A DNA stretch of 64,000 nt from Marivita lacus. Its GTDB lineage: Bacteria; Pseudomonadota; Alphaproteobacteria; Rhodobacterales; Rhodobacteraceae. The notes under the pieces were generated by a model. It was not told the origin of the DNA and ran no database searches. It saw only the letters and a list, made by a program, of their open reading frames with translations. Location: contig NZ_BMFC01000012.1 in assembly GCF_014637725.1 (NCBI RefSeq), forward strand, positions 1 to 64,000, given 5' to 3'. Both the position numbers and the translations under genes were made by a program. Of this stretch, positions 39,121-62,518 are shown one piece after another. Each line of letters opens with the position of its first letter. The stretch's first letter is position 1.

Positions 39121-41205
39121 TTAGACCTTATAAATATCAACCTTGGTTTCCAAGCATTTTCGTAGGCTTAGATCATGCACCCCAACCTCAAACCAACTCA
39201 TGGGACGCTGATAAAAATCAAGACCCCGGCCAATTTTAATGACCCAGCCGTTGTCTAGCCGAATTTCACGATCATGCATATTTGCGTTGAGTTTGACATC
39301 AAGAATGACATCCACTTCCAGCAAGCTTTGCTTCAAGTCATCAAGTTTCTCCTGTATTTCCGCGAGCTGTGTCCGATCATCATATCCGGTGACGAGCTCA
39401 ATCTTCTTTACCGTTCCAGATTTAAGTACTGTCTCGCAGAACCTGACGAAATTTTGGATTTGATGCTGGAGTCGGATATAGGGATCTTCTATCACCACGG
39501 CCTTCGCACCGAAAAGGTATGGTCCAATAATCGACTCGTAACTGTGCCCCGTGTCTCCATACATTATCGTGAAGTGCTGTTCGTGAGCCCGGGGCTGACT
39601 GGAACTTGTTTCGCTTGGCGCTGCTGGTGTTTGGCTATTCGAAACTTCAGGGGTGTGGTTGCTCGGTGCTTCTTTTTCATCGGGTTGAGCTTCAGGCTGC
39701 ACAGAAACGTTCAGCCTTCTCCTTGTTGGCTCCTGGGTAGCTGCCGCGTCTTTCGACTCCGGACAGTACACAACCACTTCTGATCCATCAGAAGTAAAGT
39801 AGGAGAGATTAATCAAGGCGAACTCATCATCTGGTTTGCGCTTGTTCATCTGTTCCTTCACCCGACGACGGCATTCGGTGGCATACGCTACATACTCTTC
39901 GAATTCCTGATTGCTCGGCATACCGTTCGGATGAAGTATTTTCAGAAACGCTGCTACTGTTTTCTTGATGCCCTTCTCGTCACGCCCCTCAACAGCTTTG
40001 CCAAGGCGAATGCGGCGGTTCACCTCTTCATATCTGTTCGTATGCTTGAATTGATAGTGAAATGCCTCAGCAAGGTAGTCGGTGATAAATCCATATCGGC
40101 TGGTCAAAAATGAGCTGCTGTTCTTAGGAAACTCCCAGCCTGGGATATATGCTGCGAACCGATCCATGATCGCCAGATCAAGTTCAGGTGGTAGCGGTTG
40201 AAAAAGGTCGTATTCTGTCGAATTAACGACCTGGCTCACTGACAGGTCGATGTTGCCTACAAAACTGAGACTCGCATCCGCAATGACTTCCGCGCCACGC
40301 GAAAACCGTCCATTCGCCATGAAGTCCTTCATGATTTGGATCGTATCCGGATCACGGACCTTGATCCCTCCAACTTCGTCAAATGCAACGGTGTCCCAGT
40401 AACCGACCAAGCCAACTTTGCGACGAGCGTTGTTATAGAAGAGCGTTGCTTTTGTTGCCTGGCCGCCAGATATGAGCGTGGCGTAGGGCGAGAATTCACT
40501 GAAGAAATAAGACTTTCCGGTTCCGCGAGGGCCCAACTCGATATAGTTGTAGTTGGGCTCTACAAGCGGAGCCAACCGAGCCACGAAGTGCATTTTAACC
40601 CGTTGAGAAAGCTTGGACGGTTCCAGACCGACCGATCTCATGATGATGTTGATCCAATCGTCTCGCGTGAATTCGCTGCGGCCATTTGTGTACTGCTGGA
40701 AGTCGAAGCGTGAGAGCTGAATTGGGCGCAGGTCTTCTATATAGAACGCGTAATCATCTTCTTCGATGTCGTTATGTGAAAGTGTAACCTCGGCCCAGAT
40801 TCCGCCCTCTAGAAGCCTCTCATTGTCACGATAGAATTTTTCGCCTATTGCAATCCTCTGTGAATTGAAGTTTTCCAGTGATGCCCAGTGCCTTTTTTCC
40901 TTTTCAACGTATCTGACATGAACCTTGTCAATGAAACGGTGTTTGCCCTTAGTCGCAACTTTAGACTGCGCAGCATTGGCTTCATCGGGCCTTACATAAT
41001 TGTCCTGAAGCGTTGCAAGCACGGCCTCCATGCCCGCGTCCATTTCCGCCTGATCGTCGCTTGCACAATAACGAGCCAACAGAAACTCAAGCACGAATGT
41101 GGGTACGTTTGTCCCCTTCTTGATCCGATGAAGCAGGTCTTTTCGCACCACCTTTCCATCGAATGTTGACGTGAGGCGCTGATCCAGTTCGTCCATGTCG
41201 TTCAT
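39121..41205 (-). CDS. brxL: BrxL, AAA+ protein of BREX
   Basis: A 694-residue protein. An AAA+ core carries Walker A GPRGTGKSYFF (about 225-235) and Walker B VAFDEVGG (about 272-279), and the N-terminal region matches BrxL (DELDQRLTSTFDGKVVRKDLL). The C-terminal 160 residues (YGDTGHSYESIIGPYLFGAKAVVIEDPYIR) resemble the MIT_C/PLD-like domain I know from BrxL; I see no clear Lon Ser-Lys dyad. A Pro/Ser-rich linker (about 480-540) joins the parts. BrxL forms rings on DNA and is needed for defence but not methylation in type I BREX. It is the last gene of the operon, overlapping pglZ by 4 bases, and is the most AT-rich of the set. Confidence 0.9.
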   Translation of the reverse strand: MNDMDELDQRLTSTFDGKVVRKDLLHRIKKGTNVPTFVLEFLLARYCASDDQAEMDAGMEAVLATLQDNYVRPDEANAAQSKVATKGKHRFIDKVHVRYVEKEKRHWASLENFNSQRIAIGEKFYRDNERLLEGGIWAEVTLSHNDIEEDDYAFYIEDLRPIQLSRFDFQQYTNGRSEFTRDDWINIIMRSVGLEPSKLSQRVKMHFVARLAPLVEPNYNYIELGPRGTGKSYFFSEFSPYATLISGGQATKATLFYNNARRKVGLVGYWDTVAFDEVGGIKVRDPDTIQIMKDFMANGRFSRGAEVIADASLSFVGNIDLSVSQVVNSTEYDLFQPLPPELDLAIMDRFAAYIPGWEFPKNSSSFLTSRYGFITDYLAEAFHYQFKHTNRYEEVNRRIRLGKAVEGRDEKGIKKTVAAFLKILHPNGMPSNQEFEEYVAYATECRRRVKEQMNKRKPDDEFALINLSYFTSDGSEVVVYCPESKDAAATQEPTRRRLNVSVQPEAQPDEKEAPSNHTPEVSNSQTPAAPSETSSSQPRAHEQHFTIMYGDTGHSYESIIGPYLFGAKAVVIEDPYIRLQHQIQNFVRFCETVLKSGTVKKIELVTGYDDRTQLAEIQEKLDDLKQSLLEVDVILDVKLNANMHDREIRLDNGWVIKIGRGLDFYQRPMSWFEVGVHDLSLRKCLETKVDIYKV

Positions 41206-43727
41206 ACGGTATAGTCCGTCTCAAGATTAAGCGTGCTTAGGCTCGCTAAAGTTGTTGGGTTCAAGGCCTTTATCGAGAATTTTCCCTCAAAGTCGGGATC
41301 CATTCGCAGTGCAATCTGTTTCCGCTGTCCCGGCGTTAGGGTGATTGTACGTGTGGCGGGATTTACATCACCGCCCGCTCGCGGCTCACCAACCACATTT
41401 CCTTTTCCGTTTTGGGCTTCAATTAGAACCTCAACGCTTTCTTCTTGAGAAAACATATCGTCAGAAACCAAGGCAATTTCCACAACGGGTACTCGCGTCG
41501 TAATTCGTTTCGCGCCATTTTTGTATTTGAGCTCGACGGTCATCTTGGTTGCGCTCGAATGTTCTTTACTATCTAGGCGCGCGACAATCACAGGTACAAC
41601 TGACTCCGCCAAGGAGGCTCCGCCGTGGAAGTAAAGGTGGCCTGCCCTGTAGGGAGCCATGCTCTTGGGCAGAGCAACCTGGGCGAAGCTGCCTCGGATG
41701 CCCAGCTTCTCCGAGTTCAAAACAACACTATGAGAGTCGCTGTTTCCGTTCCCAAGCAGGGCTCTATCATGCGCATTAACCGGCCAATTCCCTTGTGGCT
41801 TAGTGCAAACGTCCCCGGCTGCAGCATGACCATTGAGAAAAAAGCCATGGTCTGTGACGATCACGGCCTCTTTGAATCCCATTCCACGCAGCTTGTGCAG
41901 GGCAACACGAATGAGCTTCAATGTGCTGGGTATCAAGCCGAGGGTGGTCTCAGGATTGCTCTCGAGCTGACTGTCGATCTCGGTTGATCGCAGCACTAGA
42001 AGATCAACGGTGGTCGTTATCTTTGGCTTTCCGCGAACAAAGTCGCTCAGTGGCATCTCCTGAAACCGATCACCAAGCTTCTTTCGAAGCACGTCCATGC
42101 GCTGGCTGACGTTCCCAACCTTGGCCGTTCCCAGTTTTGGCGCCAGCGCCTCGCCTTCCATCTCGAGCGACAGCTGTGTTCTGGCTCCAGGAAGAAGGCT
42201 GGCCATACCGACAAGGGTTATCGTCGGCAATTGGGCGTAGGCCGCCTGCAGCTCAACTGGCCCGTCTTCAGACAGCTGCTTTTCAAGCGTTACGCCGAGC
42301 TCGTACCGCAGGGCGTCGACCATGAGATAAGCAACTTTTCTTCCATTTTCTTTCAGACGGTCAGCCAGTATTCGGTCATAGACGTCTGCATTTGCCAATC
42401 TGCCTTCCGGAGGCCAACCGGCGTCCTCAATATGCCTAATGAAGATTGCCTGGACCTTTTCAGCCAGGCGACGATACCGGGATCGGGCTTGGTCAATGAC
42501 TTCGTGCATGATGCCGTGGGAGTCGAGAAAGTCGCCAACCGCCTGTTCAAATTCGCGTTGAAGACGGTCCGCTTCTCGCAGGCTTCCTAGGTAGAAATCC
42601 AGCAAATCAGCTTGTGATCGGGCGTGTTCTGGTAGCTGGCGTTCGTTGTCGTCGCAGCATTCGATCAGCGCTAGGCCGGTGCGGATCAACTCCCACTGCG
42701 CCTGGCTTTCGCCTTTGCCCAGCCAGACAGAATCCTTATGGCGGCTTATGATGCTGCGGGTCGTATCCGTCTCGTTGGTCGAGATGCCCTTGATTGCTGC
42801 CTTGAGGAAGGTGCGCTCCTCGAATGGGAACGTGTCGCGATCACCAAGGTCATCGATGTCGCGGCACTGCTCCGGAAGAGCGAGTTCAAGCTCAATTGCC
42901 TCTGCGCGCTCAATGTAGGTGTCACGAGTTGCAGGATTGGTGCGGAGGCGATCGCACACATCCTCGATGATCGGCTTCGCTTCGATTGGCGAGTGTGGAA
43001 CGCCCTTGAGTGATTCAGGCAGGGGAACCGGCAGATCAAAGACAAACTCGCTGAAGAGAACGAAACGCCAGAGTTCATCGGCGATCGACGTCCAGGTCTT
43101 GCCTCGTGTTTTGACGCTCATCCCCAGGGTCGCGCGCAGGAACTCCCTGGCTTCGTCACTCCAGCCTTCTTGCGACTTGAGGGCGTCGGCTTGCTTGGCG
43201 CTCGGCGACAGAAGCGCCGTTAGGATTTCGCGGCCCGACTCGACCCGAAGCGCGGCCCGGAGCTGCGGCCAGCTGGCGCCGCCGCCAATCGCATCGATCA
43301 CAGAAAAAGACGGGCCATTGGGCGAGCCTGCGAAGATGCGGCGAATTTCGGTCGCATGGTCCGGCTTCGCGCGCAGGCAAAGGCTCAGGTAGTCGTCACC
43401 ATCGTCCTGGGGAAAGACCGCTCCACTTTGTGCATAGATTGAGAAGGGGTCAGCCTGCTTTTCTTCATCGGATTCCGTGCGCCGCTGCGGAACATAGACC
43501 ACCAGCGCGTCAATCTCACGCGTGGTCTTGCCGACTTCACGCAGAGCCATGATCGCTTCCTGGCGGCTCTCGATACTGCTTTCAGAGGCGTCGATCACAC
43601 GGATGCGGTCATCGCCAAGTCCCAAGCACAGGTCGTGGTACCGGTGATCAGGGTCGTAGACGACCATGCAGCCCGCCTTAAGAAGGCGTTCGCGCATAAC
43701 GTCACGGATGAAGGCGGCAATACTCAT
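41202..43727 (-). CDS. pglZ: PglZ, alkaline-phosphatase-fold BREX protein
   Basis: An 841-residue protein with a PglZ domain from about residue 460. Metal-site segments are AYLMVDALRYE, the PTITLVGMASLLPG strand with the Thr, IVTDHGFFLN, and YFHGGASLAESVVPVIV. The first 450 residues are helical; the last 150 are a beta-rich domain. It is essential for both methylation and exclusion in BREX and interacts with BrxB; its hydrolytic role is not settled. The gene lies 3 bases after pglX and overlaps brxL by 4. Confidence 0.92.
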   Translation of the reverse strand: MSIAAFIRDVMRERLLKAGCMVVYDPDHRYHDLCLGLGDDRIRVIDASESSIESRQEAIMALREVGKTTREIDALVVYVPQRRTESDEEKQADPFSIYAQSGAVFPQDDGDDYLSLCLRAKPDHATEIRRIFAGSPNGPSFSVIDAIGGGASWPQLRAALRVESGREILTALLSPSAKQADALKSQEGWSDEAREFLRATLGMSVKTRGKTWTSIADELWRFVLFSEFVFDLPVPLPESLKGVPHSPIEAKPIIEDVCDRLRTNPATRDTYIERAEAIELELALPEQCRDIDDLGDRDTFPFEERTFLKAAIKGISTNETDTTRSIISRHKDSVWLGKGESQAQWELIRTGLALIECCDDNERQLPEHARSQADLLDFYLGSLREADRLQREFEQAVGDFLDSHGIMHEVIDQARSRYRRLAEKVQAIFIRHIEDAGWPPEGRLANADVYDRILADRLKENGRKVAYLMVDALRYELGVTLEKQLSEDGPVELQAAYAQLPTITLVGMASLLPGARTQLSLEMEGEALAPKLGTAKVGNVSQRMDVLRKKLGDRFQEMPLSDFVRGKPKITTTVDLLVLRSTEIDSQLESNPETTLGLIPSTLKLIRVALHKLRGMGFKEAVIVTDHGFFLNGHAAAGDVCTKPQGNWPVNAHDRALLGNGNSDSHSVVLNSEKLGIRGSFAQVALPKSMAPYRAGHLYFHGGASLAESVVPVIVARLDSKEHSSATKMTVELKYKNGAKRITTRVPVVEIALVSDDMFSQEESVEVLIEAQNGKGNVVGEPRAGGDVNPATRTITLTPGQRKQIALRMDPDFEGKFSIKALNPTTLASLSTLNLETDYTV

Positions 43728-51634: not shown

Positions 51635-52400
51635 CGCAAAGCTCCTCCATGTCGTGTTGCTTCCAGCCGACCCGCACGACATCTCCCGCGGATTGGATAA
51701 TGATGAGACCTTTCAGCGAAAGACGCTTCATCTCTTCAAGAACGTCGTCCCGCTCCAACCCAAAGAGCTTCCAGTCATCATGGTTCAGGACGGCATTGTC
51801 GCCAACTCCGCGGAAATGGAGCTCGTATGCCAGATATGCGCTTGTCGTGGCTGAAATCCGAAATGGAAGAATGCGCCGACTTGACCGTAACCCGCGTCCA
51901 AGTAAACCGTAGTCTGCACAGCATCCGGTTAGATATGCCGACACTCGTCGGATCGTCGATTCAGACCACCGTTTCGATGTCTTCCCATCGTCAATTCCCC
52001 GCTCCACGAACGCCCGTGCGTCTTCGCTGGAGATCTCTTGGTAGCCGCCCGCGTAACGCGCCCAATAGACGTCACGAATAAAGTCGCCAAGAATGGGATT
52101 CGCCCGGCTTGTAAAAACGAGCATAAGCTGAATTAGCTCAGATGCGGGGAGTTCGGCGGACAGTTTCTTCAAATGCAGCGCTGGTTCGCCATCGGCCGTC
52201 AGATAGCGCGGCGCAAAGCATTCTGAGACAATGTTTCGTAGGCGTCGCGCAGTAATCTCCGGAAATCTCCCAGATTTCAGGGCAATGTCATGCAACTGGC
52301 TCGCCGACATGCCCGGTGACCACAACTCGAGAAGAGCTCTGGTCTCGTTCACAAGACCAAGCCCTGCCTGCAACTGAGTTGTGTATAGAGCCCGTTCCAT
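51615..52400 (-). CDS. brxA: BrxA (DUF1819)
   Basis: A 261-residue helical protein with the DUF1819/BrxA pattern. It has an N-terminal TRALLELWSPGMSASQLHDIAL and a central RLRNIVSECFAPRYL. It also has SKRWSESTIRRVSAYLTGCCADYGLLG near residue 140. BrxA binds DNA in characterised type I systems. The first base of the start overlaps the brxE stop; the end overlaps brxB. It is somewhat longer than the ~200 residues of enteric BrxA. Confidence 0.82.
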   Translation of the reverse strand: MERALYTTQLQAGLGLVNETRALLELWSPGMSASQLHDIALKSGRFPEITARRLRNIVSECFAPRYLTADGEPALHLKKLSAELPASELIQLMLVFTSRANPILGDFIRDVYWARYAGGYQEISSEDARAFVERGIDDGKTSKRWSESTIRRVSAYLTGCCADYGLLGRGLRSSRRILPFRISATTSAYLAYELHFRGVGDNAVLNHDDWKLFGLERDDVLEEMKRLSLKGLIIIQSAGDVVRVGWKQHDMEELCDVLAKG

Positions 52401-52912
52401 TATGCGACTAAGTAAGGAAGAGCTTGTGTGTTGGACGACAGCGCCATCTGGTAGATCGCGCCGATTTTGTCCAAAAGAGAGGATGCGCGGAGTTCGTCGA
52501 TCTTTCCAACCTGCACAGGTCCGACCACCTCATCAGCCGTTGCATTGCTGACTTTGGAAAGAGCGTTCAGAGCGGACGCCTGATCCACGATCAAGCTGGG
52601 ATCAAAGAGCTCGAGTTGCTCTGCCTGCACCATTTCGTGCAGGTCTTGTTCGATCTCTTCTGGAAGCCGGAAAATATGGAATGACCCCACGCTCAAGTTT
52701 TCGTCGTGGAACCGACGTGCCGCTTCCACTGCGCCATGGTACTGTGCCAGCGGAGCTGTTCGCGAAAAAACCGGTTCGAGAAAGCGAATGCTTGAAGCCT
52801 CGTAAAACGATGTTGGCCACCAATTACACTGTGACTTCTCGCCGAGGAATCCGACAAGATATCGAAGTTTTATTATTCGCCGCATTAGATCAGACTGCTC
52901 ACGAGGAACCAT
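52400..52912 (-). CDS. brxE: BrxE family protein
   Basis: A 170-residue protein matching the BrxE family as I know it: REQSDLMRRIIKLRYLVGFLGE at the start, NWWPTSFYEASSIRFLEP near 30, and GSFHIFRLPEEIEQDL near 75. The biochemical role is not known. It stands between brxR and brxA with no spacing on either side, so it is expressed with the BREX genes. BrxE was defined in type VI systems (with brxD and brxHI), whereas this operon ends in brxL. Confidence 0.85.
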   Translation of the reverse strand: MVPREQSDLMRRIIKLRYLVGFLGEKSQCNWWPTSFYEASSIRFLEPVFSRTAPLAQYHGAVEAARRFHDENLSVGSFHIFRLPEEIEQDLHEMVQAEQLELFDPSLIVDQASALNALSKVSNATADEVVGPVQVGKIDELRASSLLDKIGAIYQMALSSNTQALPYLVA

Positions 52913-53791
52913 CTAGCCCTCTCTTTCTATAGAACTGCCCGGTGCCAGGCCTGCAATTGGGGACACCAAGACAATTTGCTGTTCTTGGGGAGGGCGGGTT
53001 TTAGCGTTGTTGTCGAGCCCGAGTTTTTTGAGTGCGTAATAGAGAAGCGCCCTGCGCACTTGGATCTTTGCTTTGCCTTCTCGCATTCCATAATCGAGTG
53101 CGATCACTTTCTTCTGGCTTTCGGACAGCTCTGGGTGGGGGCCGATCTCAAGCGTGACATGCTCTTGCCAGTCCGCATCGGCGGCATCCGTGACCTCACT
53201 GGCTTCAACGCTGCGTGTCGAGATGATGCGAGAGAGCAGGAAGTCCTTGAACACCTCGTCCATCTGACAGTAGGCCCGCGTGTGCCACCGGAAGCCATCG
53301 AACCCGATGGCATGGGGCGCGATCCACCGCCAACACGGCTCAGGGCGTGACAGGGACTGATACTTCACCTCAATGGCCTCTGAACGGCGGATAGCGGCGA
53401 CAACGGATCGCAGAATGACAGGGTTTACACCGCGGGCGGGCGTTGGTGCAGCATCGTAGGTTGGCAGTTCTGCGATCCAGGTATCGTCGCTGTCCATAAT
53501 GCCGTCCGCCAACGACCGCAGCTGCGCGAGGTAGCGGCTGGCGTCAGGCTTCAGGAAGTGTGGGGCATAGTCGGGGCCACGTACATACGTCCGCGCACTC
53601 TTGTCGTAGACCATGTTGTCCGGTGCGAAACCAAGATAGCGGTTCAGGTCAGCGGACGCTTGGTTCACCGACAGCCCGAATTGCTCCATCAAGTCGCTGC
53701 GGTTCACATGCCCCTCCCAAAACAATCGGAACTCGATGAACTCGAGGCGCTGCGCGACCCCCCAACGAAGCTCCGATTTATCGTTTTCCAC
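52913..53791 (-). CDS. brxR: BrxR, WYL-domain repressor of BREX
   Basis: A 292-residue regulator. An N-terminal winged helix (about 10-60, RLEFIEFRLFWEGHVNRSDLM...NQASADLNRY) is followed by a WYL domain (about 125-205) with the FRWHTRAYC segment in place of the WYL triad, and a C-terminal WCX-like part. BrxR dimers bind inverted repeats upstream of their own genes and repress until a ligand, perhaps a DNA fragment or nucleotide, is sensed. The GTG start is preceded by GGGAG. It is the first gene of the BREX operon, and 220 bases of non-coding DNA lie upstream. Confidence 0.88.
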   Translation of the reverse strand: MENDKSELRWGVAQRLEFIEFRLFWEGHVNRSDLMEQFGLSVNQASADLNRYLGFAPDNMVYDKSARTYVRGPDYAPHFLKPDASRYLAQLRSLADGIMDSDDTWIAELPTYDAAPTPARGVNPVILRSVVAAIRRSEAIEVKYQSLSRPEPCWRWIAPHAIGFDGFRWHTRAYCQMDEVFKDFLLSRIISTRSVEASEVTDAADADWQEHVTLEIGPHPELSESQKKVIALDYGMREGKAKIQVRRALLYYALKKLGLDNNAKTRPPQEQQIVLVSPIAGLAPGSSIEREG

Positions 53792-53811
53792 TTCGCACTC
53801 CCGACCCGGTA

Positions 53812-53830
53812 CGCACGATTAATATGCGCG
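53812..53830 (-). promoter_or_regulatory. Candidate -10 / operator region of the BREX operon
   Basis: About 25-40 bases before the brxR start lies an ATTAAT-centred, partly symmetrical site (CGCA-N9-TGCG) that includes a TATTAAT -10-like hexamer on the minus strand. The -35 box is not clear. BrxR-type repressors bind near their own promoter, so this is a reasonable operator candidate. Confidence 0.3.
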
Positions 53831-53940
53831 CCCATTTTTTGTGCTGTCTGCACGCTAGCGGGGAGGCCCTAAGTGTTCAATCGAAATGCTGCGTGATTTC
53901 TGGAGTTTGTTGGGCTGGACTCGTTTTCGTAAGAACCAAC

Positions 53941-54004
53941 GGGAAGTCAAGTAGGCGTGCCGAGCTGCACCGTCCCCGGAACGCCTGCAAATATCGCAAC
54001 CACA
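53941..54004. repeat. Hairpin-bearing direct repeat, copy 1
   Basis: A 64-bp segment that recurs at 58401-58465 with about 75 percent identity. Best conserved are AGGCGTGCCGAGC and ACGCCTGCAA with CGCAACCACA. In this copy the inverted arms (AGGCGTGCC / GGAACGCCT) have one mismatch. It lies between mcrC and brxR, about 150 bases before the brxR start. Confidence 0.7.
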
Positions 54005-54011
54005 GCATCGG

Positions 54012-55331
54012 CTAAATTGCAGGAGGCAAGTCATGGGTGCATCCGGAGGGGCGCCTTGCTGCGTGCAACGACGTCTGCTTCCCGTACCGTTCACTCGGGA
54101 TCATCCCTGCAAGGCCCGCAGGAATCCCGCTGCCGAAAGCGAGCTCGCGAACATCCACGGCGACGACCTCCAAAACCGGCTGCTCTTCCGTTCTGAGCAC
54201 GAACTCCGTGATCTTTCCTGGCGGGCAGTCCACCGAGGCCGGGTAGACGAGCGCCAGACGATTGCATCGGTAGCGGCTGGCATACGCGTTCATCTGATAA
54301 GCGTCGCCGCTCGAAACGCCTGAGTTCGACATGCTCACATCAAGACGCTTCCATTTCGCATCAATGATGGCGACGCTCTCGTTGCCGTTCTGAATGGTGA
54401 TGTCGGGTCGAAGCTGGAAACCCGATGTGGCGAGGTTTTTCATCGGACTTTGTAGTCCGACAGAAATGCGATTACCCGCGCTCGCCTGACACGCATGCCG
54501 GATGCGCAGTCCGAGCACCATCTCGAAGAGCTTTTCCATGTTAAATAGCAGCGCCGAGCCAGCTGCGTTGCCGGTGCGGACATCAGGAAAGAGACCTGCC
54601 AGAAGCCACCGGGCTCGTACGAACACTGGCTCCCAGTTCCGGATTGTGCGGTCAAGGTGGAGCGCGTCAACTTCGCGGATCGTGATCCTTCGGTCCCTTA
54701 CCTCGTCGAAGCGATGGAGGAATGCCGCCACCATCGCTCGGGTGCTTGGACTCAGCGCGAACCCAAGCAGAAGCCGGATGACTCCCTTGAGCGCTTGATT
54801 ATAGGGGTTGTCGATGCTGCGTTCGTCGAAACGGCATAGCAGGTGAGAACGGTCGAATGCGTTCGCGCGCAGATGGTCGGTTAGCTTGAGCCGTCCGCGG
54901 ATGGCGTTTAGGTTCTCCGTCCTCTCGGAGTATCGAGCGATGGCCCCGCCTCGTAGCGCGGATTTCACCTGGTTGCAGAAATCCTCGATGAAAACGTCTA
55001 GGAGGTGACTGTGCTGGTGCCCGAGACCAGCGTCGCCCACCCGCTTTGATCCAAGTTCACCTGCACGCGCAAGCATGGCCACCAGAAGTCCCCGCATTTC
55101 CTCGCTGCTATCGCTGCCATGGTCGATCTTGGGAAGTATCTCGATCGCCAACTGCCCGGTCTGCAAGACCCCACAGAACGGCCCAAACTTCAGCGCGCGG
55201 TGACCCCATGCGAGGGTACCGGGGGGCAGACGCCCGGCAAGTTTTGCGATGCCTTCCGCCTCCAGTTCGCTGATTTCACCGGTCGAGCCAATGCTGATGC
55301 TCTCCCTCTCGCGGAAGGTCAGGCGCCTCAT
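54012..55331 (-). CDS. mcrC: McrC, nuclease subunit of the McrBC-type restriction system
   Basis: A 439-residue protein of the McrC family. The N-terminal barrel (LTFRERESISIGSTGEISELEAEG) would plug the McrB ring. The C-terminal half has PD-(D/E)XK residues in LRPDITI (D) and IIDAKWKRLD (D-x-K) near 325-350. It starts with ATG overlapping the mcrB stop by 4 bases. With McrB it cuts DNA carrying modified bases, so it targets phages with cytosine modification. It is normal in length and looks intact. Confidence 0.9.
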   Translation of the reverse strand: MRRLTFRERESISIGSTGEISELEAEGIAKLAGRLPPGTLAWGHRALKFGPFCGVLQTGQLAIEILPKIDHGSDSSEEMRGLLVAMLARAGELGSKRVGDAGLGHQHSHLLDVFIEDFCNQVKSALRGGAIARYSERTENLNAIRGRLKLTDHLRANAFDRSHLLCRFDERSIDNPYNQALKGVIRLLLGFALSPSTRAMVAAFLHRFDEVRDRRITIREVDALHLDRTIRNWEPVFVRARWLLAGLFPDVRTGNAAGSALLFNMEKLFEMVLGLRIRHACQASAGNRISVGLQSPMKNLATSGFQLRPDITIQNGNESVAIIDAKWKRLDVSMSNSGVSSGDAYQMNAYASRYRCNRLALVYPASVDCPPGKITEFVLRTEEQPVLEVVAVDVRELAFGSGIPAGLAGMIPSERYGKQTSLHAARRPSGCTHDLPPAI

Positions 55332-57583
55332 TCAGGTGGCTCGTAGATCTTGCGGATCGCGTTCGGGGTGATGTCGTCTTCTCGAATAATCTCGAACGCC
55401 TCACCGTCACTGATTTCGGTCGGGTCCGCTTTAGGAAAGAGCAAAGCGGCGCTTTGCATACGCGCCCGGACGAGTTGCAGTTCCTCCTCCACCGCTTGGT
55501 CGGCAAGGATGTATCTGATCTGCCGCCAGTCATCGTAGAACGCCTCTTGCAGGAAGGGCAAAATTTCCTGTGCAAAGACCCGGCGCAGCTCGTCGAACGA
55601 TTTCACATGATAAAAGTAGCTGTGGCCGAGAGTCTGGTCGCGATGCAGCAGGCGAGACAGGCGGGCATTCATAGCCTGCAGTAATTGCCGCAGGTCGATC
55701 GTGTTGCCCTCGCCATCGTCAATCGATTCAAGCAGTTCAGGTTTCGGCGTGAGTTCTTCAAACCGGAACCGGCGCCGCAAGGCGCTGTCGAGCAGGGCGA
55801 TCGAGCGGTCCGCGGTGTTCATGGTGCCGATCACATCTACATTCGCCGGCACTCCAAAACGCTCACCGGAGTAAGGGAGCGTCACTTCCAAGCCCTTGCA
55901 GCTCGCCAATCGGATTCCGGTGGTATCGGTGCGAATACGCTTGTCTACCTCAACCAGCGTGATGAGCTCGCCGAAGACTTTGGCGACATTCCCGCGATTG
56001 ATCTCGTCGATGAAGAGGGCGAAACGCATATCCGGCGCGCGCCGGGCCCGCTCGCAGAGCCGCTTCAGCACACCCGACCGAACCTCGTATGTGACGGTGC
56101 CGTCTTCCGTGACAGGACGAATCCCTTCGACGAAATCCTCGTACGCATAGCTCTGATGGAACGTGACGAACTCGAAACGATCTCCGGCCTCATCCTCGTA
56201 ACGCGGCAGATAATCGTTCTTCAGACGATAAGTCTTCCCGGTGCCTGGAGGACCGTAGATAATGAGATTCAGCGGCGGTGCGGCTTTCTTCGGCAATGCT
56301 TCTCCAGATCCCTTACCGCCCTGTGGCGCAGTTGTGCCTGTTGCAGCCAGTGGCAGCGCCTTCCAGAGGCGCTCCAAGGTCCTGGCCGCCTTGTTCTTGA
56401 TCTCGATCCCAGAAGACTGCGGGTTCCATTCTTGGCTGGGTTCGCGGCTCTGAAGTTCTTCTAGGGGGACAATCTCGTCCATTGTTGCGTCGCGGACGGA
56501 GTCGAATGCCAGGTCAATGAAGCGCGTCATCTCTCCGGCATCGGCGCGGGCCCGTTCCCAGTGCTCTGCGTCGTAGGGCGCGCGCGTAACCTTGCCCACA
56601 CCCACGATGCCCTTCGGAGGACTGCCGGTCCGGATCAGAAAAACGCGGTCACCCTCGCGCGGCTTGCTCGAGCTGCAGCGCCAGCGGCTGTCGGCCTTCT
56701 CACCGCTGATGGTCATGGCGCGGTCGGCAGCGAGTGTATCCCAGTTCCATCTGGATGGGTTCCAGCTGAGGAGCCAGTTCTTTGTCTGCGTCTTCCATTG
56801 GGACTCAAATTCTTCTTGGTAGAAATCGATGTCCGCGCCGTGCTCCTGTTCCAGACGACGGCGCAGGTCCAGTAAAGCGCGGTCAATCTCGATAGTGCTC
56901 CACTTACGAATTTCCTTCTCCGGCGTGTCACTGAAGCCTGCGAGGATCAGGCGCTTATCGCCTTCGGAGCTGATCCGCTCGAAGGTGTCAGGAAACAGCA
57001 GGTGTGGAAGGATGTGGATCAATTGCCTGTTTCGAGCCTCTGGGAGGCCGCTCAGCCAGCCGGAGAATGCCCAGGGATCAGAGGCGATCTGCTCGCGATC
57101 GGAGACATCGCGAGCCTTGAAGTCGCGCATGGCACCGATCAGAAAGACCAACTCGCGCCACCGATGCGTGTTGTAAGCAGTTCCAGCGGAACCGATGCCC
57201 TTGAGGACAGCATCATTTAGAAGAGGATGCATCCCGTCCAAAACTTCCCCCGACCAGGACCAGATTTCCAAAACGTTCTCCCGCTTTTTGGCGGCGCCCA
57301 CGTTTGAAGGAAAGAGAAGCAACAGCCACAGGCTCTCGGCCATCAGCTGCCGGCAATTAGAAGAGCCTTCTGAAAGCTGCACTCTCAGTTTAGAGAGAAA
57401 ATCACCTTCACCGGCGTCGAGGTTCTGGACGAAGCGCTGGTCAAGTTCGTTCAAAAGCGCGTTCGTCCAAAGTTTCTTGCCTTCAGAAAAGATCGAATGT
57501 TCGGCGATCAGAGATCTTTCACGCCACTGCCCCGCAGCGTCGTAAATTGGTTTGACATGGTGGCTAGGACTAAACTTTGACAC
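55328..57583 (-). CDS. mcrB: McrB-type AAA+ GTPase with EVE-like reader domain
   Basis: A 751-residue protein. The C-terminal AAA+ module has Walker A GPPGTGKT (about 450-457), the Walker B FIDEINRGN near 540, and the McrB signature MNTADRSIALLDSALRRRF near 610. Residues about 265-390 (WNPSRWNWDT...GDRVFLIRTGSPPKGIVGVGKV) look like an EVE domain, a PUA-fold pocket that reads modified cytosine. The first 250 residues form another helical domain I cannot name. It is the first gene of the mcrBC pair. Confidence 0.9.
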   Translation of the reverse strand: MSKFSPSHHVKPIYDAAGQWRERSLIAEHSIFSEGKKLWTNALLNELDQRFVQNLDAGEGDFLSKLRVQLSEGSSNCRQLMAESLWLLLLFPSNVGAAKKRENVLEIWSWSGEVLDGMHPLLNDAVLKGIGSAGTAYNTHRWRELVFLIGAMRDFKARDVSDREQIASDPWAFSGWLSGLPEARNRQLIHILPHLLFPDTFERISSEGDKRLILAGFSDTPEKEIRKWSTIEIDRALLDLRRRLEQEHGADIDFYQEEFESQWKTQTKNWLLSWNPSRWNWDTLAADRAMTISGEKADSRWRCSSSKPREGDRVFLIRTGSPPKGIVGVGKVTRAPYDAEHWERARADAGEMTRFIDLAFDSVRDATMDEIVPLEELQSREPSQEWNPQSSGIEIKNKAARTLERLWKALPLAATGTTAPQGGKGSGEALPKKAAPPLNLIIYGPPGTGKTYRLKNDYLPRYEDEAGDRFEFVTFHQSYAYEDFVEGIRPVTEDGTVTYEVRSGVLKRLCERARRAPDMRFALFIDEINRGNVAKVFGELITLVEVDKRIRTDTTGIRLASCKGLEVTLPYSGERFGVPANVDVIGTMNTADRSIALLDSALRRRFRFEELTPKPELLESIDDGEGNTIDLRQLLQAMNARLSRLLHRDQTLGHSYFYHVKSFDELRRVFAQEILPFLQEAFYDDWRQIRYILADQAVEEELQLVRARMQSAALLFPKADPTEISDGEAFEIIREDDITPNAIRKIYEPPE

Positions 57584-57710
57584 GAAAACACGCTTTCTCG
57601 GTTGTTTTACGGGGCGCGGTGGATGCCAGACGTCTGGCCCGGAGGCCTTTGCGGCTCAAAGCCACAGTAGTTGCGGCTTTGCTTGCAGGCGTTGACAGGG
57701 CCGTCGGAAT

Positions 57711-58103
57711 TTATCTGTGAAATCCTTCTCTTGCATCGAGGGCAACAGAAATCTTCGCATGGTTCGTTTTTGCGATCACAATATCAGATAGAATTAATGC
57801 TGATCGAACAACACCATTGGCGCTCGGTTCTCGGCCTCGTAGCGTGATAAACGGTCGTTGGACGCGGTGCTTGGCGTAAACATGGTCGTGGAATTCGGAC
57901 TGACTTGAAAATACCGATGCGCAAAAGGGGCAGGAAAAGCTTGATTCACTGGGCAGACTGAGATCAGGCGTCCTTTCGGTGCCTTCATACAAGGCATCAA
58001 GGTGATCTTCACGGATCCAGCCGACAGTGGGCATATTGACCTCCCAAGTCGCGACAGTCCTCGTTATGCCGTCGGCGTGTCGAACCCACCCATCCAGCTT
58101 CAT
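57711..58103 (-). CDS. Small C2H2 zinc-finger protein, perhaps truncated
   Basis: A 130-residue protein with one clear C2H2 finger (CPFC-x12-H-x4-H near residues 55-77) and a beta-rich region before and after. The start MKLDGWVRHADG...TVGWIREDHLDALY looks like an intact protein N-terminus, but the end (DAREGFHR) stops abruptly in the middle of a strand. It may be a remnant of a longer protein or a short adaptor. It lies 128 bases upstream of mcrB in the same direction. No ribosome-binding site is evident. Function unknown. Confidence 0.5.
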   Translation of the reverse strand: MKLDGWVRHADGITRTVATWEVNMPTVGWIREDHLDALYEGTERTPDLSLPSESSFSCPFCASVFSSQSEFHDHVYAKHRVQRPFITLRGREPSANGVVRSALILSDIVIAKTNHAKISVALDAREGFHR

Positions 58104-58400
58104 CAATCAACATCAATGAAATAAGCGTAACAGCTAGCATTTCCGCGAACAAGCGGATTGACAGAAATGACGGGCGATGGACCGGCCATGTTCGCCGATG
58201 GTGTGACCTTCATTCAGGCAATTTCGAAGGCGCGCATGGACCTCGATTTCAACTCGACCTCTTGCTCCTGCAGCACACCGATGTTCTCCCCTTTAAAGAC
58301 CTGCTGCAATTCATTTTCCTCCCTTCAAATCGGTCGGGACACAAGCATGCAGTAGATGAGAAACGAAAGGCCAGACTGGCAAAACTTCAAGGGCAATATC

Positions 58401-58465
58401 GGGACGTAATGCAGGCGTGCCGAGCCTCACCACTTACCGGCACGCCTGCAATTTTCGCAACCACA
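58401..58465. repeat. Hairpin-bearing direct repeat, copy 2
   Basis: The second copy of the 53941-54004 element. Here the arms are a perfect 12-bp inverted repeat (GCAGGCGTGCCG at 58411-58422 and CGGCACGCCTGC at 58437-58448) with a 14-base loop. It lies in a 522-bp non-coding stretch (58104-58625) that otherwise shows only a weak GGTCGG/CCGACC hairpin near 58480-58502. Confidence 0.7.
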
Positions 58466-58625
58466 TGCGCGGTTACGCGGTCGGCGAAACCTCGGCCGAC
58501 CTGGTGGGCTCCGAACGGGTTCGCCGTCATCCCCACCTCCGCGCTTGATCCGCCCCACAGTGCGGCGTCTCCTGCGGTCCCCGCGCTTGTCGGGTCCGGG
58601 TCCCCATCAGTTCTGGCCGCCTTGG

Positions 58626-59543
58626 CTAGTCCGCTTCCGGCGGCGGGGCGGAGGCCATCTCAGTGATGACTTGGAATTCTGCCAGAAACTCAGGTCGATG
58701 CTGCATCAGGTACCGGACGATCCGGGCGTTTCCGAGCAGCTTTCCCAGATAGCCCTTGATGACGGTCAGCTGCAGGTGGTCTTGGCCATAGGAGTCTTGA
58801 ATCGATGTGATCCCTTCCTGAAGCCGTGCCAGCTCTCGCTCCATGCGGGCCATGGCCTCGGGGGTAATGCCCTTCATCTTCTTGGGCTTCTTGGAGTCCA
58901 CCAGCTGTGCTTGGGGCGTTCCTGCGAGGATCGCGGAGATGTAAGCTGGAGAATAATTGTTTGCGTTCATCATCAGCTCGGCTGCCTCGATCTGGCGCAT
59001 GGCTTTCATCTTACGCAGGATTTCGAACACAGCGGTCGCGCATTGTTTGTCCTTCAGGATGCTGACAGCTTCTCCGCAGATCCCGTCGAGGAGTTTTGCC
59101 TTTCGCACAATGCTGCGCGGATGGAGGTCGAGCGCCAGGGCTATCTTTTCTTCGGAGACACCTCGCTCAATGGCCTTGAGGATCATTTTGTGCTCTTGGA
59201 TGGGCGCAAGGCGGCTGATCCGCTTGTTGTAGGTGAAGGCCTCGTCGTCCGTGGAGATCAGACATTCGACCCGTTCGATGCCGAGATCCTTCAGCACCTC
59301 GATCCGGATATGTCCATCCAGCAGCATATAGGTCTCGTCCTCACCGGTGGATCGCGTAACGACTGGTGGCTCGACCAGGCCAACCTCTTTGATGGATGCG
59401 GTGATCTGGCGATACTTGCGGCTGGATTTGACCGATGCGCTGAGCGCGCGCACCGGCAGGACGGCCTCAACCGGCACAGTGACGCAATCGCTTTCGAAGC
59501 CAAGCGCCACCGCGTCCGGGGATTTGCGCTTGCCACGGCTCAT
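58626..59543 (-). CDS. RepB/ParB-like protein 2 of recombinase operon
   Basis: A 305-residue protein. The N-terminal ParB-like domain (about 20-130) has LLDGHIRIEVLKDLG in place of the canonical GERR box, and the helix-turn-helix follows (GVSEEKIALALDLHPRSIVRKAKLL, about 128-152). The C-terminal half is helical, with a basic KKPKKMKG stretch, and fits the RepB C-terminal family. It overlaps the gene upstream by 4 bases. No ParA or replication gene is present, so partition of a plasmid is not its obvious role. Confidence 0.82.
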   Translation of the reverse strand: MSRGKRKSPDAVALGFESDCVTVPVEAVLPVRALSASVKSSRKYRQITASIKEVGLVEPPVVTRSTGEDETYMLLDGHIRIEVLKDLGIERVECLISTDDEAFTYNKRISRLAPIQEHKMILKAIERGVSEEKIALALDLHPRSIVRKAKLLDGICGEAVSILKDKQCATAVFEILRKMKAMRQIEAAELMMNANNYSPAYISAILAGTPQAQLVDSKKPKKMKGITPEAMARMERELARLQEGITSIQDSYGQDHLQLTVIKGYLGKLLGNARIVRYLMQHRPEFLAEFQVITEMASAPPPEAD

Positions 59544-60451
59544 TCTGTTGCTCCCGAATCCAGTGACTGCCCGAGATAGGTGGGCAGGGTGTCCAGCCCC
59601 TCCGCCCGCAAGAGCGTCAGGAAGTGGTCATCGTCGCGCAGCGTGCGAAACGCCTCCACGACGAACATCAAACGGCCCTGCGTCAGCTCGGCCTTCTTGA
59701 TCAGCACCTTCTGGCGTTTTGCTTCCTGCTGATATGCGCGCACTAGCGCGTCGCTGGTCAGGGGACGCTTGGTGCCGTCGCTTCTGCCATATCGGTTTCG
59801 ATGAAGGTGCGGACCTTGAGCATCGCGCTGCTGGATAAGACGGCGCACCGCGGCGAGTTTCTTACCGCGCAACTTTTTCTGGGTGTAGGCATCCATCAGA
59901 GCGCGCTGCCCGCCCTCGGCATCTGTCTTTGAAATGTCGATGGCGAGGTTCAGCGGCAGAAGGCCGGTTTCTACGGCCGAGACCAGCCGTTCTTCCCCGC
60001 GCTCCAGAAGCCCCGCGATCATGCCGACATAGTCTGGCGTGACGCCGATCTTGTTTGCGATCTGGCGATCATTGTAGCCGCGTTTGCGCAGGTTGCCGAT
60101 TTCGCGCATCAGGTCGATGGGGTTGTGCTGGCGACGTGCACAGTTTTCCACGAGGCTCATGACAAGGCAGTCGCTCTCATCGGCGTCGATGATGATGGCC
60201 GGGATGGCATCCTGCTGAAGCTCCATGAACGCCTCGAGCCGACCTTGGCCGCATACGAGATCATATTCCGCAGGGTCTGTCCCGACGCGTTGCGCCACGG
60301 TGATCGGTCGCTTCAGACCGATCTTTGCGATGTTTTCGACCATTTCCTCGAAATTGCGGCGGTTGCGTACACGGGGATTGAGGATGCGAATGCGGTCGGT
60401 GGGGATGAGTGTGATATGCTTCTGTGCAGTGTCGTGATCGTCGTCATGCAT
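59540..60451 (-). CDS. RepB/ParB-like protein 1 of recombinase operon
   Basis: A 303-residue protein with a ParB N-terminal domain (LNPRVRNRRNFEEMVENIAKIG, VCGQGRLEAFMEL, SLVENCARRQHNPIDLM) and an HTH (NDRQIANKIGVTPDYVGMIAGLL, about 128-150). The rest is helical and matches RepB C-terminal-type proteins. The GERR CTP-binding box is changed to GQGR. It overlaps the recombinase stop by one base and the second ParB gene by 4, so all three are one operon and probably act together on DNA. Confidence 0.83.
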   Translation of the reverse strand: MHDDDHDTAQKHITLIPTDRIRILNPRVRNRRNFEEMVENIAKIGLKRPITVAQRVGTDPAEYDLVCGQGRLEAFMELQQDAIPAIIIDADESDCLVMSLVENCARRQHNPIDLMREIGNLRKRGYNDRQIANKIGVTPDYVGMIAGLLERGEERLVSAVETGLLPLNLAIDISKTDAEGGQRALMDAYTQKKLRGKKLAAVRRLIQQRDAQGPHLHRNRYGRSDGTKRPLTSDALVRAYQQEAKRQKVLIKKAELTQGRLMFVVEAFRTLRDDDHFLTLLRAEGLDTLPTYLGQSLDSGATE

Positions 60452-62025
60452 CAGGCGGCCTCCGTGATCCGGGCCCGGCCAGCGAGCGCATAAAAATAGT
60501 CGAGCGTGTCAAAACGATAGGCGTCCAGCGACAGTCCGTTCTGCTCGGCCAACTTCAGCCTGCTCATGGTCATGTCGATGCTCGGAAGCAGGTAATAATC
60601 GCGTGGGCCGCTGTTCAACGCGTCCATCCGCACGGCGATCGTGATGTCGGGTACCAGGTCAGTATCGAGGCGGATGCGCCATCGCAGGGAGCCGCCCTGC
60701 GTCTCGAAACATCGGGCCAACACCACCGACGCCGTGAACTCGTCGTTGATGCGGATCAGGTCGGTGTCTGGATCTTGGAAAGCATGGCCGCCGCGTTCGC
60801 CGATACCTTCAAGTATCTGGGCTACGATGCCGGGGTGGGCCTGCCGTAACACCCTGTTAATCTCGACGTAGCGATAGTCGCGCTCCGGCTCGTAACCGAT
60901 CATCTGGTAGGCGCGCAGCAGGCTGCCGAAGCGGCTCCGAAAGGCGCTGGACGACGGTACGTTGTCCTGTTCATCGATGATCAATCCGGACAGCACGCCT
61001 TTCTGTTTCAGAACGGTGCGAAGCGCTTCGAGCAGTTCGGCGTCCGTGAAATGCTGGCTGCGTGCGTCGATGATTTCGCGTGCACGCAGAAACAGCGCCT
61101 CGTCCACAATTGCGGGGTAGGCGCCTACGGCCCGGATCCACATCTCGCGCGGATTCACCACCCGGCGCTGTTTCAGCTTGAAGGACACCTTGTTGTAGAC
61201 GTTGTTGCCGATGTATTTCTCGTTGGTCAGGACCTGGTGCACCGATGCCCGGGACCATGGCCGCTCAAGATCGGTCAGATGCCCTTCGGCATTCAGGGTT
61301 TCCGCAATCTTGCGCTCCGAATGGCCATCCTCGACGAACATCCGATACATCCGGCGCACAATGTCCTGTTCCTGCTCAGGGCCTGGAACAAGCACGACAC
61401 GGTCGGTCTGAAGGCTCTTCTGCTCACCGCGGGATAACGCGCCCTTCGGGTTGCCGTGTTCGTCGATCAGCACCCGGCGCAGGCCATAACCTGCCGCACC
61501 GCCTTGGCGGAACCCAAGCTCTACCAGGCGACATTGCCCCGCGAACACCTTCACGGAAAGCTCGCGGCTGTACTCGCCCGCCATGACCCGCTTGACGGTT
61601 TTCAGCAGGTTGGAGCCGATGCTGCCGTCGTTTTCGAATTGCTCGCCGCAATAGTGGACGCGGATCCCGGCACGAGAGCAGACATGCTCGTGGTAGGCCC
61701 CTTCATCGGCATCCTGAAAACGGCCCCAGCGGCTGACGTCATAGACCAGAATGGCCTTGAAATCCGCTTGGCCTGTTCGGACCTCGGCCATCAGGTTCAG
61801 CAGCGCTTCGCGGCCGTCCAACCGCAACCCGGACCGACCGGAGTCCTCGAACACCCGCAGGATCTGCAGACCCCGGGCGTTGGCGTAATGTCGAATGACG
61901 TCCAGCTGGTTCTCGGTCGAGTACTTCTGGTGATCGGTCGACATCCGCACATAGGCGACAGCCGGCACATCTGTTTCCGGTGGCTCGTCGTTCCTGTTCG
62001 AATGGGTCGCTGATCGACCGGTCAA
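60451..62025 (-). CDS. Large serine recombinase
   Basis: A 524-residue site-specific recombinase. The catalytic domain has the Ser nucleophile S29 in YVRMST, the DSGRSG motif (61-66) and the D-x-SRWGR motif (96-102). The recombinase domain (about 185-300) contains GYGLRRV and ERPWSRASVHQVLTNEKYIG. The C-terminal part lacks the CxxC zinc ribbon of many phage integrases. It could integrate or excise the island. It is divergent from the HTH gene at 62120, with a 94-bp shared promoter region. Confidence 0.9.
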   Translation of the reverse strand: MTGRSATHSNRNDEPPETDVPAVAYVRMSTDHQKYSTENQLDVIRHYANARGLQILRVFEDSGRSGLRLDGREALLNLMAEVRTGQADFKAILVYDVSRWGRFQDADEGAYHEHVCSRAGIRVHYCGEQFENDGSIGSNLLKTVKRVMAGEYSRELSVKVFAGQCRLVELGFRQGGAAGYGLRRVLIDEHGNPKGALSRGEQKSLQTDRVVLVPGPEQEQDIVRRMYRMFVEDGHSERKIAETLNAEGHLTDLERPWSRASVHQVLTNEKYIGNNVYNKVSFKLKQRRVVNPREMWIRAVGAYPAIVDEALFLRAREIIDARSQHFTDAELLEALRTVLKQKGVLSGLIIDEQDNVPSSSAFRSRFGSLLRAYQMIGYEPERDYRYVEINRVLRQAHPGIVAQILEGIGERGGHAFQDPDTDLIRINDEFTASVVLARCFETQGGSLRWRIRLDTDLVPDITIAVRMDALNSGPRDYYLLPSIDMTMSRLKLAEQNGLSLDAYRFDTLDYFYALAGRARITEAA

Positions 62026-62119
62026 TTGCCTATCTCCTCACAATTCCAGGCAAATCCATCGCTCCCGCCGGAATCAACGGTTGAAGTCTTCGCATCCATG
62101 TAAAGCGAAGGAGTGTGGA

Positions 62120-62518
62120 ATGTCGTTTCCGAAAAAGGGCAAGTTCTTTCCAAAAGAAAACGGATATAATGGGAAAGACGATCATCAGACGAATGGATGC
62201 TTTGTCGACGAAATCGCATCGGCGTTAAAGCGGTCGCTCGGCGACAGTCGGGCGGGTGTCAAAACCGTGGCGGCCTGGACGGGTGCCAACGAAAAGACGG
62301 TGAAGAACTGGTTCTCGGGCACCTACGGTCCGAGTGGGGCGCACCTGATCGCGCTGTCGCGGCATTCTGACGAGGTGCTGGGTACCTTCTTGGCCATGGC
62401 AGGGCGCGAGGATCTGATGGTGGCTATCAAGCTCGCGGCTGCCGAGGACGCTATTGCGGAGCTTCTGATGGCGGTGCGGGAGCTAAATCGACACGACCAG
62501 ACAGGTTCCGATACCTGA
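62120..62518 (+). CDS. Helix-turn-helix protein, likely regulator of the recombinase operon
   Basis: A 132-residue protein. The N-terminal 30 residues are basic (SFPKKGKFFPKENGY), followed by an HTH-like segment (about 60-85, KTVAAWTGANEKTVKNWFSG) and an acidic helical C-terminus. I start it at the ATG at 62120, which has AAGGAG 6 bases upstream. Divergent placement next to the recombinase suggests it controls that promoter. The family is not recognised. Confidence 0.65.
   Translation: MSFPKKGKFFPKENGYNGKDDHQTNGCFVDEIASALKRSLGDSRAGVKTVAAWTGANEKTVKNWFSGTYGPSGAHLIALSRHSDEVLGTFLAMAGREDLMVAIKLAAAEDAIAELLMAVRELNRHDQTGSDT

Follow-up and report, generated by a model that had tools for sequence, protein, structure and literature searches.

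A repeated hairpin that probably is the 3′ end of a structured RNA behind a recombinase operon and marks an mcrBC insertion before a BREX system

Described systems and the locus

Integron attC sites are structure-conserved hairpins, in direct orientation right after a gene, with the cores GTTRRRY and RYYYAAC, and TnpB with its omega-RNA is linked to serine-recombinase transposons. Here we consider a hairpin that occurs twice in the window, that is, in the whole stretch of 64,000 nucleotides (nt) that was analysed (positions 1-64,000 of contig NZ_BMFC01000012.1 of Marivita lacus). One copy lies behind an operon encoding a serine recombinase and two RepB-family proteins, and the other in front of brxR, which precedes the genes of a BREX defence system. 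Judging from the comparison of related loci, the hairpin very likely represents the 3′ end of an RNA encoded behind the recombinase operon, its second copy marking an insertion of the genes mcrBC before the BREX system. As for attC sites, the window hairpin is structure-conserved, directly oriented and right after a gene. However, the adjacent recombinase belongs to the serine class and no cassette array was seen in the 56 RNA loci considered (window included); attC cores, searched for by eye in the arms of the window hairpin, were absent.

The nearest precedents are the TIGR-TasA loci with a ParB-like gene (PMC12045711) and the IS110 bridge RNA (PMC11208158). Also in IS110 a structured noncoding RNA is encoded beside the recombinase gene of a mobile unit, but the recombinase is another one, whereas here we have a serine recombinase with two RepB proteins (PMC11208158). 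As regards the guide feature of bridge RNAs, no guide-like match between the RNA and its flanks was found: in 39 loci the longest exact match of an RNA to its own flanks was no longer than with the flanks of other loci, in a comparison that covered the module flanks. The TIGR-TasA loci with tasParB share with our locus a ParB-like gene in an operon tied to a noncoding RNA (PMC12045711). They differ in that the three proteins of our module match only recombinase, RepB and ParB_N families, and in that we have a single RNA of conserved fold, no repeat array having been looked for or seen. The omega-RNA of TnpB elements is likewise located at the 3′ end of genes belonging to mobile elements (PMC10278001), but TnpB is not among the three genes of the module. 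Finally, the R-BOX operators of BrxR (PMC9122601) are inverted repeats upstream of brxR, but with 11-bp arms and a 5-bp spacer, and the window hairpin is not the conserved element upstream of brxR. A literature search, with bioRxiv preprints and most subscription journals outside its reach, returned no description of a recombinase-RepB-RepB-RNA module.

The two hairpins and the mcrBC insert

Copy 2 of the hairpin (58401..58465, minus strand) has its stem at 58411-58449, with 12 perfect pairs (13 counting the outer T/A), and is flanked by 16 nt on the 5′ side and about 10 nt on the 3′ side. Copy 1 (53941..54004, minus strand) lies between mcrC and the brxR promoter and has 10 of the 12 stem positions paired, 2 of the 12 pairs being lost. 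In a local alignment, copy 2 (read from 58465 to 58400) and the copy at 54004 were identical in 53 of 66 columns. The 28-base 3′ part CGGNACGCCTGCAANNNTCGCAACCACA, with at most 3 mismatches allowed, was found at 2 places in the window and at none in 100 shuffles. The first-pass annotation had described the two repeats in the same orientation, the words shared by them and a perfect 12-bp inverted repeat in copy 2, and all this agrees with our reading of the sequence; the conserved element around copy 2 is longer than had been drawn and extends to 58605. Comparison with relatives supports the reading of copy 2 as the intact 3′-terminal hairpin of a putative structured RNA of about 195 nt, and copy 1, no longer joined to that RNA, is decaying.

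An empty site with a single copy, which had been proposed as a check, was found in locus L150, where the order is RNA core, one hairpin, brxR promoter. Precisely, the alignment of the window to L150 extends on the left flank as far as 58400 (216 of 247 columns) and resumes on the right flank at 54004 (411 of 481 columns), the single 66-bp hairpin stretch of the empty site being matched at both ends of the insert. Since both flanks match the same stretch of L150, we considered as the insert the 4395 bp from 58399 to 54005 (54005..58399), which are absent from L150. Four other loci (L012, L014, L017, L026) also have one hairpin between the RepB gene and brxR and no mcrBC, and in these and L150 brxR starts 336-356 nt after the RNA start. 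The view that the repeats mark an insertion of mcrBC between the RNA and the BREX system is supported by these alignments.

Gene content was called from Pfam and PADLOC. Inside the insert, all on the minus strand, are mcrC (54012..55331), mcrB (55328..57583, with EVE and AAA_5 matches) and a C2H2-like gene (57711..58106, with a zf-Di19 match below the cut-off of Pfam). At 58121..58251 is the promoter region of mcrBC, which also contains the start (about 58188-58251, plus strand) of an xre gene that is divergent and truncated. Read from 58251 to 58121, this region matches, in 97 of 132 columns, what lies upstream of mcrB in L204; there a divergent xre starts, and in the window only its first codons are recognisable. 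The earlier statement that the block is made exactly of mcrC, mcrB and the C2H2 gene is right for the three genes, but the truncated divergent xre with promoter DNA and about 150 bp of unassigned DNA have to be added. A search for mcrB in genomes of the family gave matches in 9 of 248 at E ≤ 1e-60. The C2H2 gene was rejected as a fixed partner of mcrBC, given that its homologues occur in 3 of 248 genomes, including that of the window, with no mcrB in the DNA around the others (1.7-3.4 kb per locus).

A second copy was also searched for in the 56 RNA loci, a set that includes L161, which the pattern anchored wrongly and which is outside both the set of open reading frames (ORFs) and the count of 97 loci given below. 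Repeats were present in four loci (window, L009, L013 and L188), with a full second hairpin only in the window; the repeat of L188 is a 28-nt match outside the hairpin. In L009 (5771-10001) and L013 (5690-10001) mcrBC is also at the RNA-brxR junction, in this case with half a hairpin copy, and the repeat spans from the middle of the hairpin to the ribosome-binding region of brxR. Given this extent, mcrBC in these two loci is preceded by a duplicate of the promoter and operator of brxR, an arrangement that would place McrBC under BrxR control; each of the two has a second site of the brxR-upstream profile described below, before mcrB. The left copy of L009 is identical to the empty locus L012 in 342 of 352 positions. 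In the window, L009 and L013 alike, the hairpin joined to the RNA is intact and the other one is damaged or half lost. Locus L013 is a mosaic, in that its recombinase and RepB proteins are 94-96% like those of the window and its downstream junction resembles that of L009 and L012.

More distant mcrBC genes lie behind the RNA in L166, L170 and L181, where no second hairpin copy was found. In L166 and L181 these genes and the RNA are convergent, the genes lying a few hundred bp further on. Four further loci of the mcrBC family of the window (L202-L205, 76-86% identity) have, in all four cases, no window-like hairpin, with a pattern that misses quite different arms, no RNA core and no BrxR site scoring above 14, and on these loci we rejected the hairpin as the end of mcrBC cassettes. 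The idea of a recombination footprint by which defence modules are added as cassettes holds as far as an insertion is concerned (comparison with L150), but not as a general cassette boundary, because the hairpin would belong to the RNA behind the recombinase operon and only 1 of the 56 RNA loci has a second full hairpin.

Fold, strand and distribution of the candidate RNA

The candidate structured RNA, about 195 nt long (58411..58605, minus strand), is composed of a conserved core (58605-58476), a variable stem and the terminal hairpin. It begins 20 nt past the end of RepB-family gene 2 (58626..59543, PF07506), which follows RepB-family gene 1 (59540..60451, PF07506 and ParB_N PF02195) and the serine recombinase gene (60451..62025, Resolvase PF00239 and Recombinase PF07508), all on the minus strand.

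The fold was evaluated on three alignments. Alignment A1 contained 38 core sequences picked by DNA similarity, a selection that is partly reflected in their mean identity of 86%; its 38 rows gave 34 pairs in seven helices, with 92.1% of the cells paired and double changes in 13 pairs, and 0 of 500 shuffles were as high. Alignment A3, made by MAFFT with the window as guide, joined the window to 46 new rows that came from viral contigs and genomes; of these rows, 10 are at least 95% like some A1 row, one being identical. With the A1 structure imposed on it, 94.8% of the A3 cells were paired and 18 pairs had double changes. In alignment A4 we considered only 32 rows that were less than 95% like A1 and each other, plus the window. 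There, 92.6% of the cells were paired, double changes occurred in 18 pairs and 78 cells, and the covariation score was 0.273 versus 0.133 in shuffles, none of 500 being as high. When the partners were slid by 1-3 columns, the pairing dropped to 32-49%. The mean column identity of the conserved segment was 67-86%, in rows chosen by similarity, versus only 40-50% identity for the adjoining RepB2. Conserved helices with compensatory changes are what is expected of a structured noncoding RNA, and on these alignments the segment would be one.

Across loci, the terminal hairpin roughly keeps its place and keeps its pairing but not its sequence, with arms such as GCAGGCGTGCCG, GGGCGTGCCGGAG, GCGGGCGCATT and GTCTGCGCGCACC. 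A stem with a score of at least 10 was found behind the core in 43 of 55 loci; in the controls, 9 of 165 shuffles had such a stem, and so did 9 of the 161 stretches taken at random from these loci. Among the mispairs of 39 distinct terminal hairpins, collected by a finder blind to wobble, 19 were G-T and none A-C, for which reason we read the RNA as made from the strand of the operon. The terminal hairpins show, in fact, a strand-specific wobble, which is weaker in the core. As regards known RNA families, Rfam release 15 gave no match in the window at the gathering score, and at a relaxed threshold there were only chance-level matches in 58380-58640 and in nine relatives. A known family was rejected on these scans of the window and relatives. 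The RNA is apparently undescribed, and the repeated hairpin apparently its tail.

With the brxR protein as query, 110 relatives were obtained and the 80 best retained; 11 of those loci also hold recombinase or RepB genes of this module, and in all 11 the second RepB gene is followed by a conserved segment that has a GC-rich hairpin at its end. With a DNA search in 295 genomes of the family, 43 matched at E ≤ 0.001; of these, 34 reached 2e-13 or better and the other nine were weak. The RNA model R1 matched in 15 of 385 genomes of the class, in several orders of Alphaproteobacteria, and in 12 of 378 genomes of the phylum, six of which are outside the class. The final count was 97 loci, with the window and with near-copies kept; 88 of them had the strict pattern, and 86 of these 88 at least 150 nt upstream. 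In 79 of these 86 testable loci, and in 27 of 32 among viral contigs (34 stretches fetched), a RepB gene ended no more than 150 nt before the RNA. A tree of the recombinases showed rows with and without the RNA as clustered, not as two clades (6 changes versus a mean of 10.1 in shuffles, 0 of 500 as low). Since diverged RNAs may escape detection, nothing was built on this tree.

Some solitary RNAs are near phage tail genes, namely of a tail protein in L211, a tape measure protein in L212 and a tail spike in L226 (weak, 1e-7). In L210-L212 a motif like GGATTCCC...GGGTCGAGTCC is found just before the RNA and again inside the terminal hairpin. No match was obtained by blastn of phage records with the RNA of the window or with that of L211.

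At the other end of the module, about 120 nt upstream of the recombinase, there is a 35-bp dyad, GGAAAG..TTGCCC..GGAAACGAC..TTCC (62117..62151, minus strand), whose sequence is conserved across loci and which is a candidate site for the recombinase or RepB. It was found at 33 places in the loci searched, 19 of them with at most 4 mismatches. The distance from dyad to RNA is mostly 3.5 kb; it is shorter in L156 (1.4 kb) and L014 (1.9 kb), where the RepB and recombinase genes are incomplete. In L237 the dyad (332-366) is 57 nt before the RNA and all three genes are gone, so that the locus resembles a non-autonomous remnant. A further relative of the recombinase, 58% identical to this proteobacterial one, is in L127, a record named as a Lactiplantibacillus plantarum plasmid that may be misassigned.

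For the genes behind the RNA, we took the first three ORFs of at least 150 aa in 42 RNA-defined loci, and obtained 117 ORFs from 40 loci. The 25 commonest families among them include WYL regulators (7), McrBC-family proteins (4), and DISARM- and helicase-type defence families; these are raw counts, with no enrichment claimed.

Proposed origin of the repeat and alternative explanations

We propose that the RNA of about 195 nt would be encoded directly behind the serine recombinase-RepB-RepB operon, with copy 2 as its intact end. In the original state the promoter and operator of brxR would have come directly after the RNA hairpin, an order that relatives still show. At that junction a 4.4-kb mcrBC cassette, with its own promoter, the cut-off xre and the C2H2 gene, would have been inserted, leaving a hairpin on each side, and the hairpin copy detached from the RNA would then decay. 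The most likely route is a recombination between the hairpin-bearing junctions of two related islands, by which the copies would be only 80% alike. The RNA may work, made from the operon strand, together with the recombinase and RepB proteins of the module, a role that we put forward tentatively; or else it may control the read-through into, or the expression of, the genes behind. Clearly more doubtful is the idea that recombinase, two RepB proteins and RNA form one ribonucleoprotein recombination system, a mobile module of a new kind that depends on RNA and by which defence islands are built and moved. In such a system the dyad and the RNA would be the two ends, and gene-less dyad-RNA remnants (L237) the non-autonomous copies. 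A fold kept while the adjoining RepB diverges, a wide spread, neighbours of recombinase and ParB families and defence genes behind point to a module for RNA-linked recombination or maintenance. The proposal would also give an account of how such islands are anchored and of how McrBC came to precede a BREX system.

Several observations speak against this proposal. The two copies differ at 13 of 66 columns, which exceeds the expectation for a recent duplication. The structure was derived from the sequences themselves, whose kinship inflates the covariation counts, and the pattern that fetched the viral rows preset part of helices 3, 4 and 6. The terminal hairpin scored below 10 in 12 of 55 loci. 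The core mispairs were 41 G-T versus 28 A-C for all drawn pairs except columns 33-73, and a bias of 24 G-T versus 2 A-C appeared only after also dropping the pair 38-68 and the poorly aligned helix 7. Besides, the RNA was present with no RepB gene found beside it in L084, L168 (a short contig), L226, L231, L233, L237, L246, L089, L011 and L210-L212, and the RNA model found nothing convincing (best E 1) in 11 plasmid loci of the recombinase (L120-L130), so the recombinase is not always accompanied by a detectable form of the RNA.

As the last structured part of the RNA, found right behind the operon and in several relatives ahead of the next promoter, the hairpin could be a mere transcription terminator of the recombinase operon, with the conserved segment as a passive 3′ untranslated region (UTR). 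This we consider unlikely. No T-run follows the hairpin in the window (the terminator scan, which allowed loops of 3-8 only, could not list it), and the compensatory changes, with a column identity above that of RepB2 in rows chosen by similarity, are hardly expected of a passive UTR. Another explanation takes the hairpin as a recombination site, used by the neighbouring serine recombinase or by another enzyme to insert defence cassettes; a variant would have the site act as folded single-stranded DNA. The recombinase gene is next door, and the insert is bordered by a 65-bp direct repeat of which the empty site has one copy. In L009 and L013, mcrBC was likewise inserted between RNA and brxR, at break points that differ and of which one falls within the hairpin. 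Nevertheless, a recombination site appears improbable, since the strong divergence of the arms between loci, with pairing preserved and mispairs that are G-T but never A-C, fits an RNA fold better than a double-stranded site. Moreover, beside the one full second hairpin only two half copies were present in the 56 loci, and the sequence-conserved dyad upstream of the recombinase is a better candidate for the site.

That both copies are operators had also been suggested by the first-pass annotation, as each lies upstream of a minus-strand island gene; the regulator would be BrxR or another one. BrxR binds inverted repeats, at sites with arms of 10-11 bp and gaps of 5 bp (PMC9122601, PMC9122589). 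The hairpin has, instead, arms of 12 bp and a gap of 13-15 bp. Furthermore, relatives conserve a different site, closer to brxR. We built a profile of 36 columns from the DNA preceding 80 brxR genes (those of the window and of 79 loci), in which the conserved block is GCCCAGAAAATGGGCGCGCATAGTTA.CGTGCGCA; the sites of the profile itself score 13-60, with a median of 49. In the window it scored 49.6 at 53845-53810 (53810..53845, minus strand), just upstream of brxR (52913..53791, minus strand, a WYL-domain regulator named from its place before brxA), and this is likely the BrxR operator; no other site in the window was above 16, and none was at either hairpin. A window-like hairpin was found in just 7 of the 80 brxR loci, one probably by chance, with a pattern that misses hairpins with other arms. 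On the profile score and the mismatch of arms and gap with the published sites we rejected the hairpins as BrxR operators, and operators of any regulator seem to us very improbable. Least credible of all is a REP-like dispersed repeat that landed twice near defence genes by chance, although the element is a short GC-rich palindrome in intergenic DNA and an ordinary REP family had been named as a possible outcome. In the whole 4.77-Mb genome the strict hairpin pattern occurred at 2 places (3 rows, of which one is the palindrome on the opposite strand). The same 2 places only were returned by BLAST with a 215-bp query of RNA and hairpin. This copy number, and the position of the RNA behind RepB, led us to discard such a family.

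As for the remaining genes, pglZ (41202-43727) was named by its place only. Between brxR and brxA a 170-aa gene (52400-52912) has no Pfam or PADLOC match and is 86-89% identical in L004, L005 and L006.

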